Source: an uncultured Nitrospirota bacterium
GTDB taxonomy: Bacteria; CG2-30-53-67
Direction: 5' to 3'
Assembly (NCBI GenBank): GCA_947259355.1
Contig: CAMYMF010000016.1
Span: 45,663-85,765 of the forward strand
DNA length: 40,103 nt
The position numbers and the translations under genes were made by a program. Below the pieces are notes generated by a model, which searched no databases, was not told the DNA's origin, and saw only the letters and a list, made by a program, of their open reading frames with translations. Shown one piece after another: positions 5,882-29,370 of this stretch. Within the stretch, counting starts at the first letter, position 1, and every line of letters begins with the position of its first letter.

Positions 5882-6946
5882 TTGAATATTCCCACTGCCA
5901 AGCGCGACAGCCTCAAGGAGTATTACGGGACGATTCTGAACGGAACCAAGGATCTCAAAACCAACGCCTGCTGCGCCGCCGAGGGGTCGCCATCCCCCGG
6001 GATCCGTCAGGCCCTCCGTCTGATCGATGACGAGATCCTCAACCGTTTCTATGGTTGCGGCTCTCCCCTGCCTCCGGTGCTCGAGGGCTCGGTGGTGCTC
6101 GATCTGGGATGCGGCACCGGCCGCGATGCATACATTGCCGCCCAGCTCACGGGGCCCGAGGGACTTGTGATCGGCGTCGATATGACGGACGAACAGCTGG
6201 CCGTGGCACGACGCCATCTCGACGCCCAGATGCGTCGTTTCGGCTACACGCGACCCAATGTGGAATTTAGGGAGGGGTATATCGAGGAGCTGAAAGCCAT
6301 CGGCATCGAGGACAACTCGGTCGACGTGGTCATATCCAACTGCGTCATCAATCTCTCACCGGACAAGGAGGCCGTCTTCTCGGAGATTTTCCGGGTGCTG
6401 AAACCGGGCGGGGAACTCTACTTCTCCGACGTCTTTGCCGGCCGGCGGGTTCCTGAGAGGCTGAAGAATGACCCGGTTCTGCATGGCGAGTGTCTGGCCG
6501 GTGCGCTTTATACGGAGGATTTCCGAAGGCTGCTCAGAAAGGTGGGCTGTCTTGAGGCCCGGGTGGTAAGCCGCCAGCCCATCGCCCTTCAGGAGGGTGA
6601 AATCGAACAGAAGATCGGCATGGTTGACTTCTACTCGGTCACGGTGCGGGCCTTTAAGCTGGACTCCCTGGAAGACATCTGCGAGGACTACGGCCAGTCG
6701 GCCGTCTACCTCGGCACGATTCCCGAGCACCCCCACGCGTTCGATCTCGACGATCACCACCGGTTTTTAAAAGGAAAACCGATGCTGGTCTGCGGAAACA
6801 CGGCTTCCATGCTCTCCGAAACCCGATACGCTGCGCACTTCAAGGTTCTGGGAGACCGGTCAACCCACTACGGACCCTTTGTGTGTGCGCCGGCCGTGGA
6901 AAGACCGGATGGCGAGAACGTGGGCAGCGGCGGCTCCTGCTGTTGA
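5882..6946 (+). CDS. arsM: Arsenite methyltransferase ArsM
   Basis: A 354-residue SAM-dependent methyltransferase. Motif I reads [10 protein letters not shown] (73-82) and is followed by the acidic end of strand 2 (GVD, 98-100). The arsenic-binding cysteines are present: Cys30/Cys31 in TNACC, Cys154 in SNCVINLSP and Cys204 in [10 protein letters not shown]. The 50-residue gap between the last two is typical of ArsM. The protein methylates As(III) stepwise, using SAM and thiols, to methylated and volatile arsenicals. The C-terminal domain (about 250-354) ends in a Gly-Ser-Cys-Cys tail. The start is taken as TTG at 5882 because AGGAGG (5869-5874) lies 7 bases before it; an in-frame GTG at 5846 has no such site. 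No arsR or other ars gene adjoins it. Confidence 0.92.
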
Positions 6947-19851: not shown

Positions 19852-20583
19852 ATGGGGGAGAAAACCGATTTTGTGTGCAGCCAGTGCAGTGCTGTCTGGC
19901 AGAAAAAGGGGGAAACCAACTGCTGGAGTCGAAGCCCCGATGCGCCGGCCTCGCGGCCGGCCGCCTGTCCCAGCAACGCCCACACCGATCTCATCGAGGC
20001 ATCCTATAGGGTCTACACGGGCGATAGCGAAGACGCCGCCATGGCCCGGATCGCGGCCCGGGTAGAGGGGATGTGCTATCAGCCCGTTCCGGGGAGCGAT
20101 GCCGTCAATGCCCGCTGGACCCGGGTGGAGGACACCATCGCCTTCGCCAAACTGATGGGATACGAGAAGATCGGCATTGCCACCTGTATCGGACTGCTCG
20201 ATGAATCGAACAAGCTGAGTGCCATCCTGGGGGCCCAGGGGTTTACCTCGGTCAGTGTCTGCTGCAAGACCGGCAGCATTGACAAGATCAAGCTGGGCCT
20301 GAAGGAGAGTGAAAAAGTCCGACCGTCCACCTTTGAACCCGCGTGCAATCCCATCGCCCAGGCTCACCTCATGAACCGGGCAGGGACGGACATGAATATC
20401 ATTGTCGGGCTCTGCATCGGCCACGACATGATCTTTGCCAAACACGCGGAGGCCCCCGTCACTACGCTGGTCGTCAAGGATCGCGTGACCGGACACAATC
20501 CAGCCAGTGTGCTCTATGGGCTCAATTTTTACTACAAGCGTCTTCTGTCTCAGCCCGTACAAACGGAGTCTGAAGCCGAATAG
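19852..20583 (+). CDS. DUF1847 cysteine-rich putative metal-binding protein
   Basis: A 243-residue cytoplasmic protein of the DUF1847 family. It opens with a zinc-ribbon-like start, CSQCSAVWQ, and another Cys at NCWS. Many cysteines recur: GMCYQP, ATCIGLLDE, VSVCCKTG and EPACNPIAQA. The C-terminal half (LMNRAGTDMNIIVGLCIGHD, VTTLVVKDRVTGHNP) has the conserved family pattern. Members are predicted metal- or cofactor-binding proteins of anaerobes, with no proven function. AGGAGGAATCC precedes the ATG. It sits 38 bases upstream of the OsmC-like selenoprotein gene, so a shared redox role is plausible but not shown. Confidence 0.82.
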   Translation: MGEKTDFVCSQCSAVWQKKGETNCWSRSPDAPASRPAACPSNAHTDLIEASYRVYTGDSEDAAMARIAARVEGMCYQPVPGSDAVNARWTRVEDTIAFAKLMGYEKIGIATCIGLLDESNKLSAILGAQGFTSVSVCCKTGSIDKIKLGLKESEKVRPSTFEPACNPIAQAHLMNRAGTDMNIIVGLCIGHDMIFAKHAEAPVTTLVVKDRVTGHNPASVLYGLNFYYKRLLSQPVQTESEAE

Positions 20584-20621
20584 GCGTACCGAGTCGAAAG
20601 AACCGCAACAAGGAGAGAGCC

Positions 20622-21089
20622 ATGGGAGAAGTCGTTCATACGTCCCGTATCGCCATCACGCGGGAAAAGGGGCCTGTCCGCAAGGCCATGATTGAAGGGT
20701 TTTCAGACCCGGTTTACTATGGGATTCACGGGGGGATTCAGAAATTCTACGGTGTCGACCCGGTGGAGGAACACGCCGCTACCCTCGACCATATCGTCGG
20801 AGCGGTCTCCGCTTGAATGATGGGCACCCTGGCCAGCGTGCTGGCCGCGAAGAAAATCCGCACCCACACCGACCGTTTCAGGGCGGACGTGGAAGGAGAC
20901 ATCCGCGAAGTGGGCGGCATCCTGAAGATCACCGACATCCGAGTTCGCTATCAGCTCAAGGTTGCCCCGGAGCAGGAGGCTGACGCCCGTTGGTGCTTCG
21001 GGAACTATGTCGACAAGTGCCCGGCGGCCCAAAGCGTTATCGATTGTATCCGGATCCAAGATGAACTGGAGGTGCTGCCCGAGAATTGA
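20622..21089 (+). CDS. OsmC-like selenoprotein (in-frame UGA at 20814-20816 read as Sec)
   Basis: A 155-residue OsmC/Ohr-family protein if the TGA at 20814-20816 is read as selenocysteine (residue 65). The frame before it (64 residues ending TLDHIVGAVSA) and after it (MMGTLASVLAAKKIRTH) are two halves of one OsmC fold. TGA falls where the family has its first catalytic Cys, and the second is Cys133 in DKCPAAQSV. Neither half is a complete domain, and no base is missing. A SECIS-like hairpin follows (separate entry). OsmC proteins reduce organic hydroperoxides with a Cys pair; Sec would raise reactivity. GGAGAGAG precedes the ATG. OsmC-like proteins are an established bacterial selenoprotein family. 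Readthrough needs SelA-D genes, which are outside this window. Confidence 0.85.
20831..20846 (+). promoter_or_regulatory. SECIS-like hairpin for the OsmC-like selenoprotein
   Basis: GGCCAG (20831-20836), loop CGTG (20837-20840), CTGGCC (20841-20846) form a perfect 6-bp stem. The loop starts 20 bases after the UGA, inside the usual 16-37 base range for bacterial SECIS elements, and has G in the first two loop positions. Confidence 0.75.
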
Positions 21090-25735: not shown

Positions 25736-26902
25736 ATGTATAGAGGACTGGATTACTTGCACTTCTCGACCCTGCTGTCGGAAGAAGAGAAGATGGTCAT
25801 GCAGAGCACCCGCAAGTGGGTGGAACAGCGGGTCGTGCCTGAGATCGCGGATTACTTCCAGCGCGCAGAGTTCCCGGTCCATCTGGTGAAGGAGATGGGG
25901 GCACTGGGCCTCTTGGGGATGACCATCCCGGAGGCACACGGCGGCACCGGCGCGACCTACACGGCATACGGCATCGCCATGCAGGAGCTGGAACGAGGCG
26001 ACAGCGCCGTTCGCTCCTTCGCTTCCGTGCAATCCTCATTGGTGATGTATCCCATCTATCTGTGGGGCAATGACCGGCAGAAGAAATATTGGCTGCCGTT
26101 GCTGGCCCGGGGCGACAAGATCGGGGCCTTCGGCCTCACCGAAGCGGGTGCCGGCAGCGACCCGGCCCGGATGATCACGCGAGCGACGCAGCAGGGCGAC
26201 ACCTATATTCTCAACGGGGGTAAGATGTGGATCACCAACGGCACCCTTGCCGACGTCTCCCTCGTCTGGGCCAAGGATGACCAGGGCGAGATCCGGGCCT
26301 TTCTGGTCGAAAAGGGCACTCCCGGTTTCAGCGCACCGCCCATCGAGAACAAGCTTTCCTTGCGGGCCGGCAACACGGCGGAGCTTGTCTTCAATGACTG
26401 CGAGATCCCCCGGGAGAACATGCTGCCCGACGCCGCCGGATTGAAGCATGCACTCATGTGTCTGACCAGCGCCCGATTCGGCATTGCCTGGGGCGCCATT
26501 GGCGCCGCCATGGCCTGTTACGATGAAGCCCTGAACTATGGGAAAGAGCGGATTCAGTTTGACAAACCGATTGCGGGCTTTCAGATCTCCCAGGAGAAGC
26601 TGGTCTACATGCTCACGGAGATCACCAAGATGCAATTTGTGACCCTGCAGGTGTCCCGGTTGATGGACCGGGGCGAAGGACGTTACACCCATGTTTCCCT
26701 GGTCAAGCGGAACAATGTCTATCACGCGCTCGAAATTGCACGGCTCGCCCGGGATCTCCTCGGCGCCAACGGAATCACCACCGACTACGGCGCCATCCGC
26801 CATATGACCAATCTGGAATCGGTCAAGACCTATGAGGGCACCCATGACATCCATACCCTGATCCTGGGCAAGGACATCACAGGTCTTGCCGCCTTCAACT
26901 GA
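25736..26902 (+). CDS. gcdH: Glutaryl-CoA dehydrogenase (acyl-CoA dehydrogenase family)
   Basis: A 388-residue FAD-dependent acyl-CoA dehydrogenase closest in motifs to glutaryl-CoA dehydrogenase: SVQSSLVMYPIYLWG and, at the C-terminus, TYEGTHDIHTLILGKDITG. The catalytic base is Glu367. The glutaryl-carboxylate pocket is conserved: ELERGDSAVRS keeps Glu86, Arg93 and Ser94, which in studied enzymes go with the decarboxylating type (glutaryl-CoA to crotonyl-CoA plus CO2). AFGLTEAGAGSD is the FAD-binding motif. Electrons should pass to ETF, whose genes are not here. GGGGAGGG precedes the ATG. It is the first gene of an operon with 2-oxoacid:ferredoxin oxidoreductase and a CoA-transferase. Confidence 0.9.
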   Translation: MYRGLDYLHFSTLLSEEEKMVMQSTRKWVEQRVVPEIADYFQRAEFPVHLVKEMGALGLLGMTIPEAHGGTGATYTAYGIAMQELERGDSAVRSFASVQSSLVMYPIYLWGNDRQKKYWLPLLARGDKIGAFGLTEAGAGSDPARMITRATQQGDTYILNGGKMWITNGTLADVSLVWAKDDQGEIRAFLVEKGTPGFSAPPIENKLSLRAGNTAELVFNDCEIPRENMLPDAAGLKHALMCLTSARFGIAWGAIGAAMACYDEALNYGKERIQFDKPIAGFQISQEKLVYMLTEITKMQFVTLQVSRLMDRGEGRYTHVSLVKRNNVYHALEIARLARDLLGANGITTDYGAIRHMTNLESVKTYEGTHDIHTLILGKDITGLAAFN

Positions 26903-26917
26903 CGGGGGGGTCGGCAG

Positions 26918-28042
26918 ATGGCCTACGCATTCATGGATGGGGCGGAAGCCCTGGCCCGTGCAGCACTCCTGGCAGGCTGTGACTTTTATGCAGGCTACCC
27001 CATCTCCCCGGCCACGAAGATCCATCTTCTGTTGATGGACGCGCTGCCGTCGTCGGGGGGCATTGCCATCCAGGGTGAGGATGAGATCGCCTCCATTTCG
27101 ATCTGCATCGGCGCCGCCATGACGGGCCGGAAGGCCCTCACCGCCACCAGCGGTCCCGGCATCAGCCTCTATTCGGAAAGCATCGGGCTCGCCATCATGG
27201 GAGAAGTGCCCCTGGTGATCGTCGATGTGCAGCGGATGGGACCGGCCACCGGCGGCGCGACCACCGGCGCCGAGGGCGATGTGCAGTTCGTCCGGTGGCC
27301 CACATCGGGAGGCCTCCCCATGATCGTTCTGGCACCGGCGGGCCTGGCTTCGATGCTGTCCCTCACCGTGCATGCCTTCAATTTGTCCGAAACGCTCCGG
27401 ACACCCGTGATTCTGCTGACCTCCAAACAGATGGTGCTCTCCAAGCAAACCGTGGCTACTGACGAGGTGGCACTTCCCAAGATTCGCAACCGCCACTATT
27501 TCTCCGATCCCGGGGAGTACGTTCCTTACGGGGTCGACAAGCCGTCCGACATTCCGCCCTTCCTTCCCATGGGAGCCTCGCAACCCGTCCGTTTCACCGG
27601 TTCCATGCACGATGCCCGAGGCTACCTGACCAAGGACCCCGAGAAGGCGGAGCAAAAACTGCGGCATCTCCAGCAGAAGATCACCGCCCACGCCGAGCAG
27701 ATCGAATCGGTCACCCTCGATCTGCAAAAGGGCGCGAAGACCCTGCTCTTGGCATACGGCGTGAATGCGCCGCTGTGCGAAGCGGCGGTTCAGAGGGTGC
27801 GGCAGAAGGGCAAGCGCTGTTCCCTGATGATCATTGAATCTCTCTTCCCGGTACCTGAGAAGAGGCTGCAGTCCGCCCTCCAGGGGATTCGCACGGTCAT
27901 CGTACCGGAGCTGAACATCGGGCTCTATGCGGAATCGCTGAAACCCCTCCTGGCACCGGGACAAAAGCTCATCCCCATCACCCGGGTCGACGGCGAGCCA
28001 CTCTCCGTCAATGCCATTCTCCGGGAGGGCCATCTCCTGTGA
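26918..28042 (+). CDS. korA: 2-oxoacid:ferredoxin oxidoreductase, alpha subunit
   Basis: A 374-residue alpha subunit of the pyruvate/2-oxoglutarate ferredoxin oxidoreductase superfamily. Motifs include FYAGYPISPATKI, QGEDEIASI, TATSGPGISLYSE and VQRMGPATGG, which resemble the KorA (2-oxoglutarate) type more than pyruvate enzymes. With the beta subunit it performs CoA-dependent oxidative decarboxylation of a 2-oxoacid to acyl-CoA, reducing ferredoxin. The ATG follows a G-rich site and lies 15 bases after gcdH. The stop TGA overlaps the GTG start of the next gene (GTGA), indicating translational coupling. 2-oxoglutarate and 2-oxoadipate are both reasonable substrates given the glutaryl-CoA context. 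The substrate is not proven. Confidence 0.88.
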   Translation: MAYAFMDGAEALARAALLAGCDFYAGYPISPATKIHLLLMDALPSSGGIAIQGEDEIASISICIGAAMTGRKALTATSGPGISLYSESIGLAIMGEVPLVIVDVQRMGPATGGATTGAEGDVQFVRWPTSGGLPMIVLAPAGLASMLSLTVHAFNLSETLRTPVILLTSKQMVLSKQTVATDEVALPKIRNRHYFSDPGEYVPYGVDKPSDIPPFLPMGASQPVRFTGSMHDARGYLTKDPEKAEQKLRHLQQKITAHAEQIESVTLDLQKGAKTLLLAYGVNAPLCEAAVQRVRQKGKRCSLMIIESLFPVPEKRLQSALQGIRTVIVPELNIGLYAESLKPLLAPGQKLIPITRVDGEPLSVNAILREGHLL

Positions 28043-29370
28043 CGGCTATCACTTACATCGATCCCGCCCGGCTCCCCTACCCTTTCTGCCCTGGCTGCTC
28101 ACACGGAACGGTGCTCGATCGGCTCAATGAAGCCATGCTCCGGCTTTCCCTCGACCCACAGAGAGTGGTTATGGTGACGGATATCGGCTGCGTCGGACTT
28201 TCGGACCAGTGGTTCGTGACCCATGCCTTTCACGGCCTGCACGGCAGAAGCGTCCTCTATGCGGAAGGGATCAAGCTGGCGGCTCCTGATCTGGAGGTCA
28301 TTGTCCTCATGGGCGACGGGGCGGCCGGGATCGGGGGGCACCATCTCATCAGTGCGGCGCGCCGAAACATCGGGGTCCACGTCGTTCTGTTCAACAATTT
28401 CAATTTCGGTATGACCGGCGGCGAGCATTCCGTCACGACCCCGCAGGAGGCCCGGACCTCCACGACCCGGAGTGGTCAGATGGAGCAGCCCTTTCGCATC
28501 GCGGAGACACTGTCGATCAACGGCGCGCCCTTTGCGGCGCGGCGCGCAGCCTACGACGGTGACTTGGTCGATGTCATGCAAGAAGCACTGGCCTTCGACG
28601 GCTTTTCCATCATCGAAGTCCTCGAGTTCTGTCCGTCCTACTATGTGCCCTGCAATCAATTCCGAAAATCAGACATGGAGGCGCTCCTCGCGGGCGATGT
28701 CTTTCCGAGAATGCTCGAAGTCCGTGACGAGCGGACCGAGTATGCCACGTACCTGGCAGCCGTTGGCACAGACAAACCGCGCAGGGAGCTCCTACACGGT
28801 GACAGAATTGAAAAGCGCTTCGAACACACCCTCTCCGATAAACTCGACATTATTGTTGCGGGCGCGGCAGGCGGCAAGGTCCTGTCGAGCGCGTCGCTGT
28901 TTGCCAGGGCGGGCATCGCATCGGGACTCTTTGCGCTGCAGCATGATGACTATCCCGTGACAGTTCGTACGGGGCATTCCATCTCCTTTCTGAAGCTGTC
29001 CCCATCGCCCATCGCCCAGATGGGCATCGAGGCGCCGGGCATTCTCCTGCTCCTCTCTGAGGAGGGACTGGTCAGAGCCGGCACCTTCCTGAAAAAGATG
29101 CAGCAGAATCAACGGGTGATTCTTGCGGGAGATCTTCCCCGACCCGAAACGGCGGCGGCCGTTGAACGGCTCAAGCTGGATCAGCTCAAAGGTCGGATGC
29201 CCCGGCAACAGACGGCACTGGGCGTGCTCTTTCTCTTTCTCAAGAAGCATCCGCTCTTTCCGCTCGAAGCGTTGCGGGAATCGGTCGCGCGCGCACAAGG
29301 AACGGAGAGGGCAGAGAAGCTCTTCGCGATCGCCCGGGAGGCCTCCGATGACATCTGGGAGTCTGCCTGA
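28039..29370 (+). CDS. korB: 2-oxoacid:ferredoxin oxidoreductase, fused beta and gamma subunits
   Basis: A 443-residue protein. Residues 1-260 are the TPP-binding beta subunit: FCPGCSHG with Cys17 and Cys20, Cys51 in DIGC, the TPP motif GDG (92-94) to NN (119-120), and Cys198/Cys205 in EFCPSYYVPC. A single [4Fe-4S] cluster bound by such Cys is known in two-subunit enzymes. Residues about 265-443 look like the gamma subunit (KLDIIVAGAAGGKVLSSASLFARAG, the nucleotide/CoA-loop type GxGGxG region), so beta and gamma are joined in one chain. The GTG start overlaps the korA stop. It works with KorA in ferredoxin-linked acyl-CoA formation. The fusion is evident from length and motif order. Confidence 0.87.
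   Translation: MTAITYIDPARLPYPFCPGCSHGTVLDRLNEAMLRLSLDPQRVVMVTDIGCVGLSDQWFVTHAFHGLHGRSVLYAEGIKLAAPDLEVIVLMGDGAAGIGGHHLISAARRNIGVHVVLFNNFNFGMTGGEHSVTTPQEARTSTTRSGQMEQPFRIAETLSINGAPFAARRAAYDGDLVDVMQEALAFDGFSIIEVLEFCPSYYVPCNQFRKSDMEALLAGDVFPRMLEVRDERTEYATYLAAVGTDKPRRELLHGDRIEKRFEHTLSDKLDIIVAGAAGGKVLSSASLFARAGIASGLFALQHDDYPVTVRTGHSISFLKLSPSPIAQMGIEAPGILLLLSEEGLVRAGTFLKKMQQNQRVILAGDLPRPETAAAVERLKLDQLKGRMPRQQTALGVLFLFLKKHPLFPLEALRESVARAQGTERAEKLFAIAREASDDIWESA

Follow-up and report, generated by a model that had tools for sequence, protein, structure and literature searches.

Two short reading frames joined by an in-frame UGA point to a probable selenocysteine-only branch of the OsmC family with differing placements of the predicted SECIS hairpin

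We found that two apparently broken genes in a 40,103-nucleotide stretch of DNA from an uncultured Nitrospirota bacterium (hereafter the window, from whose first letter all coordinates are counted) are most likely a single intact selenoprotein gene of the OsmC family. We predict, with a confidence that falls little short of certainty, that selenocysteine (Sec) is inserted at UGA codon 65 of this gene; a conserved TGA, a SECIS signature, the sel genes and a predicted OsmC fold combine to make Sec insertion close to certain. As a kind, OsmC-like selenoproteins are not new, having been described as early as 2005; what differs here is a clade made up entirely of Sec forms, the motif of that clade and a hairpin that lies nearer to the UGA in the window's own clade. 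A wider proposal, which we advance tentatively and rate at somewhat below even chances, is that these proteins constitute an OsmC subfamily whose dependence on Sec is ancient and obligate, distributed over several phyla and left with no surviving Cys orthologue. Such a subfamily would possess an active site of its own (Sec65, Cys133, Asp56 and His36), perhaps performing chemistry that Cys cannot support, and its SECIS would have slid between clades with the protein undisturbed.

The reading frame is directly visible in the DNA: it runs from the ATG at 20622 through the TGA to the terminal stop and comprises 64 + 1 + 90 residues (Table 1), in agreement with the coordinates and frame that the first-pass annotation of this DNA had given for a TGA lying between halves of 64 and 90 residues. 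That the two halves make up one OsmC protein, as the same annotation held, is upheld both by the predicted fold (see below) and by the Pfam OsmC profile (PF02566), which matches the read-through product over residues 56-145 with 34.6 bits (cut-off 27.5) and extends across the TGA of codon 65. A purine-rich stretch, similar in kind to the Shine-Dalgarno-like element of the window, precedes the start in most of the homologues. NCBIfam has no family for the read-through protein, a phmmer search of it against PDB sequences returned only a DNA primase (E 0.023), which we take as a chance match, and a plasmid search gave no match.

Table 1. Features of the OsmC-like selenoprotein locus, in window coordinates
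Feature	Position	Strand	Details and basis
Upstream neighbour, DUF1847 protein	19852..20583	+	Pfam DUF1847, 204 bits; 38 nt upstream of the OsmC-like gene
Shine-Dalgarno-like AAGGAGAG	20610..20617	+	Upstream of ATG 20622; sequence read directly
OsmC-like selenoprotein gene (predicted)	20622..21089	+	155 residues with Sec65; TGA stop 21087-21089; read-through translation
UGA codon 65, in frame, selenocysteine inferred	20814..20816	+	TGA in 41/41 distinct loci
Predicted bacterial SECIS hairpin	20830..20847	+	7-bp stem, 6 Watson-Crick pairs + U-G; bSECIS model fit
Cys133 codon, second conserved (resolving-type) Cys	21018..21020	+	Motif CP; alignment

The TGA at codon 65 persists across every distinct locus of the branch, the window included, with Cys at 0 of the 41 (a count that remains after dropping the duplicates L022, L031, L044, L023, L025, L026, L027, L030 and L058); no state other than TGA was encountered in the branch, where TGA does not merely replace Cys now and then. 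A protein search of 145 genomes gave 10 matches in 9 genomes, each with exactly one TGA, a contig scan of genomes gave 9 loci, and 19 of 19 aligned loci, among which are the window and some duplicates, have the TGA at codon 65. A profile of 12 members, in which Sec was written as Cys and against which a Cys form would score equally, returned 22 matches in 21 of 386 genomes, including 18 strong ones (17 genomes; E ~1e-17 or better) that all contain one TGA. Four matches are weak: that of G360 (34 bits), whose TGA occupies this very site, was retained as a divergent member, outside the tree and with a second Cys that is not alignable, and those of G278 (46.3 bits), G068 (32.3 bits) and G339 (31.5 bits) contain no stop. 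The latter three were considered as candidate Cys forms of the branch and rejected, as the tree places them beyond the Sec clade, on long branches that make their placement unsure.

Within the phylum of G144 the gene is present in 16 of 18 genomes, with the TGA in 16 of 16, and in that of G104 it is present in 2 of 4 genomes, both already counted. Members with a named record include ones assigned to Thermodesulfobacteriota, Myxococcota, Chloroflexota and Planctomycetota, and the record of the congener is named Nitrospirae; one metagenome-assembled genome (isolate LH_M62) has two copies of the gene that differ from each other and lie on separate contigs (L036 and L037). In the tree, 34 Sec rows form one group with support of 100/99, whose stem measures 2.08 changes per column; this tree is without five Sec rows that are divergent, truncated or near-identical (L060, L077, L067, L069 and L066), and the partial loci L028 and L063 of G080 were left out of both alignment and tree. 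Column counts are taken over 36 Sec rows, the partial rows L060, L077 and L029 being set aside. The column of codon 65 is occupied by Cys in 37/37 Cys-type OsmC proteins and by TGA throughout the branch, so the earlier placement of the TGA at the first redox Cys of the family is sound, and the check it had proposed, a search of the homologues for Cys or Sec at this residue, came out in its favour. The second Cys (codon 133), which had been described as kept, is Cys in 36/36 Sec rows; Cys-type proteins have Cys here in 35 and Ser in 2 of 37.

Downstream of the TGA is a hairpin with the core GGCCAG-CGTG-CTGGCC at 20831-20846, which begins 14 nt after the TGA, precisely where a perfect 6-bp hairpin with loop CGTG had been reported, and is extended by the U-G pair to 20830-20847. 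Its loop CGUG (20837-20840) lies 20 nt after the UGA and its energy is -10.6 kcal/mol. The bSECIS model, as given in a 2026 review (PMC13188914), specifies a loop of 3-9 nt with a G in its first two positions, a stem of 4-16 bp, a UGA-to-loop distance of 16-37 nt and an energy of at most -7.5 kcal/mol. Hairpins conforming to this published model follow the TGA in the window and in all the other loci (41/41); when the remaining codons of these genes serve as controls, 192 of 3729 conform. A bSECIS search downstream of the TGA had been suggested at the outset, and this outcome is in its favour. On the + strand of the window such hairpins follow only 34 of 659 TGA triplets. Synonymous recodings with matching third-position GC are less stable than the native sequence at p<0.05 for 32 of 39 distinct sequences (window p 0.037), and 7 fall short of that level. 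One result is adverse: taken whole, the 48-nt stretch folds no more stably than its dinucleotide shuffles (z 0.07 for the MFE), which speaks against judging by stability alone. The SECIS signal is one of hairpin placement, covariation and synonymous-codon choice.

Three placements of the hairpin are found: from the UGA to the start of the apical loop there are 20 nt in the window and its 7 close relatives, 17-19 nt in L046, L048 and L057, and 25-26 nt in the remaining 30 of the 41 loci. For the 25-26 nt placement, pairing holds in 98.2% of cells and two pairs have changed in both arms; none of 500 shuffles reaches its covariation score, a significance that is overstated because the sequences are related. 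L057 breaks three of the six pairs of this placement, and a hairpin of its own lies at 19 nt. Pairing is complete (100% of cells) in the window's clade, one pair being C-G in 4 and G-C in 4 of the 8 sequences, and the hairpin there is ~6 nt nearer to the UGA than in other clades, over a coding sequence that is collinear with theirs. That the SECIS lies at different places while the protein stays collinear suggests that recoding signals in bacteria are able to shift. The CUGG of the 3' arm (window's clade; L021, L032-L037) overlaps the apical-loop UGG of L024, L047 and others.

The genome of the window encodes the machinery for Sec insertion: the search for selA, selB, selC and selD that had been recommended recovered all four, in the form of a tRNA-Sec (71.1 bits; ARAGORN call with anticodon tca), SelA (630 bits), SelB (403.6 bits) and SelD. 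The gene of the last has an in-frame TGA of its own in the motif GAGUACK (L041, contig G000:C32, near 6674-6880), and SelD of this genome is probably itself a selenoprotein. Across the 386 genomes, SelB at a threshold of E 1e-60 or better is present in 177, namely in 15/17 strong carriers versus 162/369 others (Fisher p 0.0003, a statistic that ignores relatedness). No intact SelB was found in the two strong carriers G080 and G197 (drafts 97% and 98% complete). Among 14 further carriers from the phylum of G144, SelB exceeds the cut-off in 10 and is represented by a cut fragment only in G397, and no intact SelB was found in G386, G387 and G393 (drafts 91, 67 and 79% complete); the carrier drafts in which none was found thus number 5 of the 31 checked, which counts against the Sec reading. 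G080 has two partial copies of the OsmC-like gene (L028 and L063), one of them at a contig end, and G350 of the same genus has SelB.

If the TGA were a true stop, the locus would be a decayed OsmC pseudogene, a pair of short genes or the result of a sequencing error, a reading that accords with how standard gene calling would break the frame at this codon and with the draft state of the assembly (94 contigs). However, the same TGA recurs in the 41 distinct loci, which come from many assemblies, the OsmC domain match spans it, and the coding sequence beyond it has diverged as a protein-coding sequence would. Codon differences between the window and the congener (L045) number 18 synonymous and 1 nonsynonymous in the part that precedes the TGA, and 26 synonymous and 3 nonsynonymous in the part that follows it, with most changes on both sides at third codon positions. 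The third-position bias in the downstream part is weaker in more distant pairs and its direction is unchanged; between the window and L032, beyond the first 48 nt, the changes number 40 at third, 14 at first and 13 at second positions (19 synonymous and 27 nonsynonymous codons). The codons downstream of the TGA thus remain under purifying selection, and we regard a true stop as exceedingly improbable. The substitutions equally bear on a 118-codon antisense frame (20703-21059, - strand), which is open in the window and several homologues and might be taken for the real gene; yet they track the third positions of the sense frame, the antisense frame is interrupted by 1 to 7 stops in 10 of 22 loci checked, and the OsmC domain belongs to the sense product, for which reasons we give it a similarly negligible chance.

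The conserved frame by itself indicates translation through the UGA without showing which residue is inserted, and another amino acid might in principle be supplied by a suppressor tRNA, by reassignment of UGA to Trp or Gly, or by programmed read-through, as could be argued from the 5 of 31 carrier genomes in which SelB was not found. Several observations weigh against this option: the codon aligns with a Cys that is invariant in the 37 Cys-type relatives, bSECIS-like hairpins accompany it in 41/41 loci, and tRNA-Sec, selA, selB and selD are all encoded in the window's genome. Moreover, the gene itself stops with TGA and its homologues stop nearby with TAA, TAG or TGA, and since all three codons terminate homologues at nearly the same place, UGA is not generally reassigned. 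We consider a different amino acid very unlikely, if slightly less so than a true stop or an antisense gene, and retain Sec as the predicted residue at codon 65. By this prediction, SelB with Sec-tRNA(Sec) would bind the mRNA hairpin at 20830-20847 and decode the UGA at 20814-20816 as Sec.

The resulting product would be a 155-residue protein of the OsmC fold, likely homodimeric by analogy with the family, with Sec65 in the long central helix at the site of the peroxidatic Cys of other members. AlphaFold, supplied with ten sequences, predicts this fold with a mean pLDDT of 88.2 and a pTM of 0.85, pLDDT being low in residues 31-50 (block means 72 and 51). The best Foldseek match in the PDB is E. 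coli OsmC (1nye, E 2.2e-6), and the best by VIA-align is 3cje (Z 12.7, 125 aligned, rmsd 2.8), the first 32 ranks of the latter all being OsmC/Ohr-type structures, two of them (1ml8 and 2egt) with titles that mention only structural genomics or a hypothetical protein. The Pfam domain, the predicted fold and the two redox residues that characterize the OsmC/Ohr superfamily are all present.

The Ohr/OsmC peroxidases (E. coli OsmC and X. fastidiosa Ohr) share the predicted fold and both redox sites with the branch; they differ in having Cys where the branch has Sec, and Ohr in having Glu at -10 where the branch has Leu or Ile. For X. fastidiosa Ohr, PMC5962072 gives Cys61, Arg19 and Glu51 as the residues used, with Cys125 as the resolving residue. 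The Glu that in the catalytic triad Cys-Arg-Glu of Ohr stands ten residues before the Cys is absent from the Sec rows, which at that place (position 55) have Leu or Ile in 36/36, and the following position 56 (-9) is an invariant Asp in the Sec rows and Glu or Asp in 35/37 Cys-type relatives. His36, Tyr43 and Thr54 are invariant in 36/36 Sec rows, an invariance that the Cys rows lack; of these, His36 and Tyr43 sit in a branch-specific loop. As the place of the Glu is taken by Leu or Ile throughout, peroxidase activity may not carry over. By analogy with the family, the likeliest function is that of a peroxidase or thiol redox enzyme based on Sec, in which Cys133 would be the resolving residue, and for peroxidase activity specifically we would put the prospects at even. 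In such a cycle, the Sec65 selenolate would attack a hydroperoxide, or alternatively another oxidant or a thiol substrate, the ensuing selenenic acid would be resolved by Cys133, and a cellular dithiol would then reduce the Se-S bond.

Published OsmC-like selenoproteins (COG1765/PF02566) share with this branch the OsmC family, an in-frame UGA and a bacterial SECIS; three sequences were reported from the Sargasso Sea and five from GOS, both sets with the motif UxxT, and reviews of 2022 and 2026 list such proteins as UxxT. In contrast, the motif of this branch is U[LM]xG[TN] (UMMGT in the window), with Gly at +3 in 36/36 rows and, in one small group, V at x+1. The first-pass annotation had spoken of an established family, a description which stands for OsmC-like proteins at large and may not extend to this branch, given its Gly at +3 versus the published UxxT. 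Furthermore, the Sargasso Sea set was reported with Cys homologues, whereas Sec was the sole form encountered in this branch. By motif alone, the published UxxT proteins would be set apart from this clade and placed outside it.

The genome that harbours the window also encodes Cys-type paralogues (L001-L004), which have the OsmC domain with Cys in the codon-65 column and fall outside the Sec clade. In one of them, L003 (G000:C21), the motif is CLTT and the second Cys is replaced by Ser; L003 has a close relative, L105, in another genome, and its CLTT, being of the form CxxT, could make it a Cys equivalent of the UxxT type already in print. In a PF02566 survey for UxxT-type selenoproteins, the best-scoring matches listed contained no stop. 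A literature search, with most subscription papers outside its coverage, found no description of a Sec-only OsmC clade.

Because standard annotation would split these genes, many draft genomes, mostly of uncultured bacteria, probably conceal a redox enzyme that is widespread. A Sec-only branch in a largely Cys family provides a natural test of the advantage of selenium over sulfur. Pairing of Sec and Cys among homologues is one approach to selenoprotein discovery, as described in PMC1088965, and methods of this type are weak on branches without a close Cys partner.

As to genomic context, the literature search found no paper with the term DUF1847, and of 18 further homologous loci that were compared, those of the congener (L022 and L031) alone have the DUF1847 gene next to the OsmC-like gene; we considered the two as a functional pair and rejected the idea, the neighbour being kept only in the congener. 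Elsewhere on the + strand of the window, at 25736-29370, an acyl-CoA dehydrogenase gene is followed by two consecutive genes of the 2-oxoacid:ferredoxin oxidoreductase type, as assigned with Pfam.
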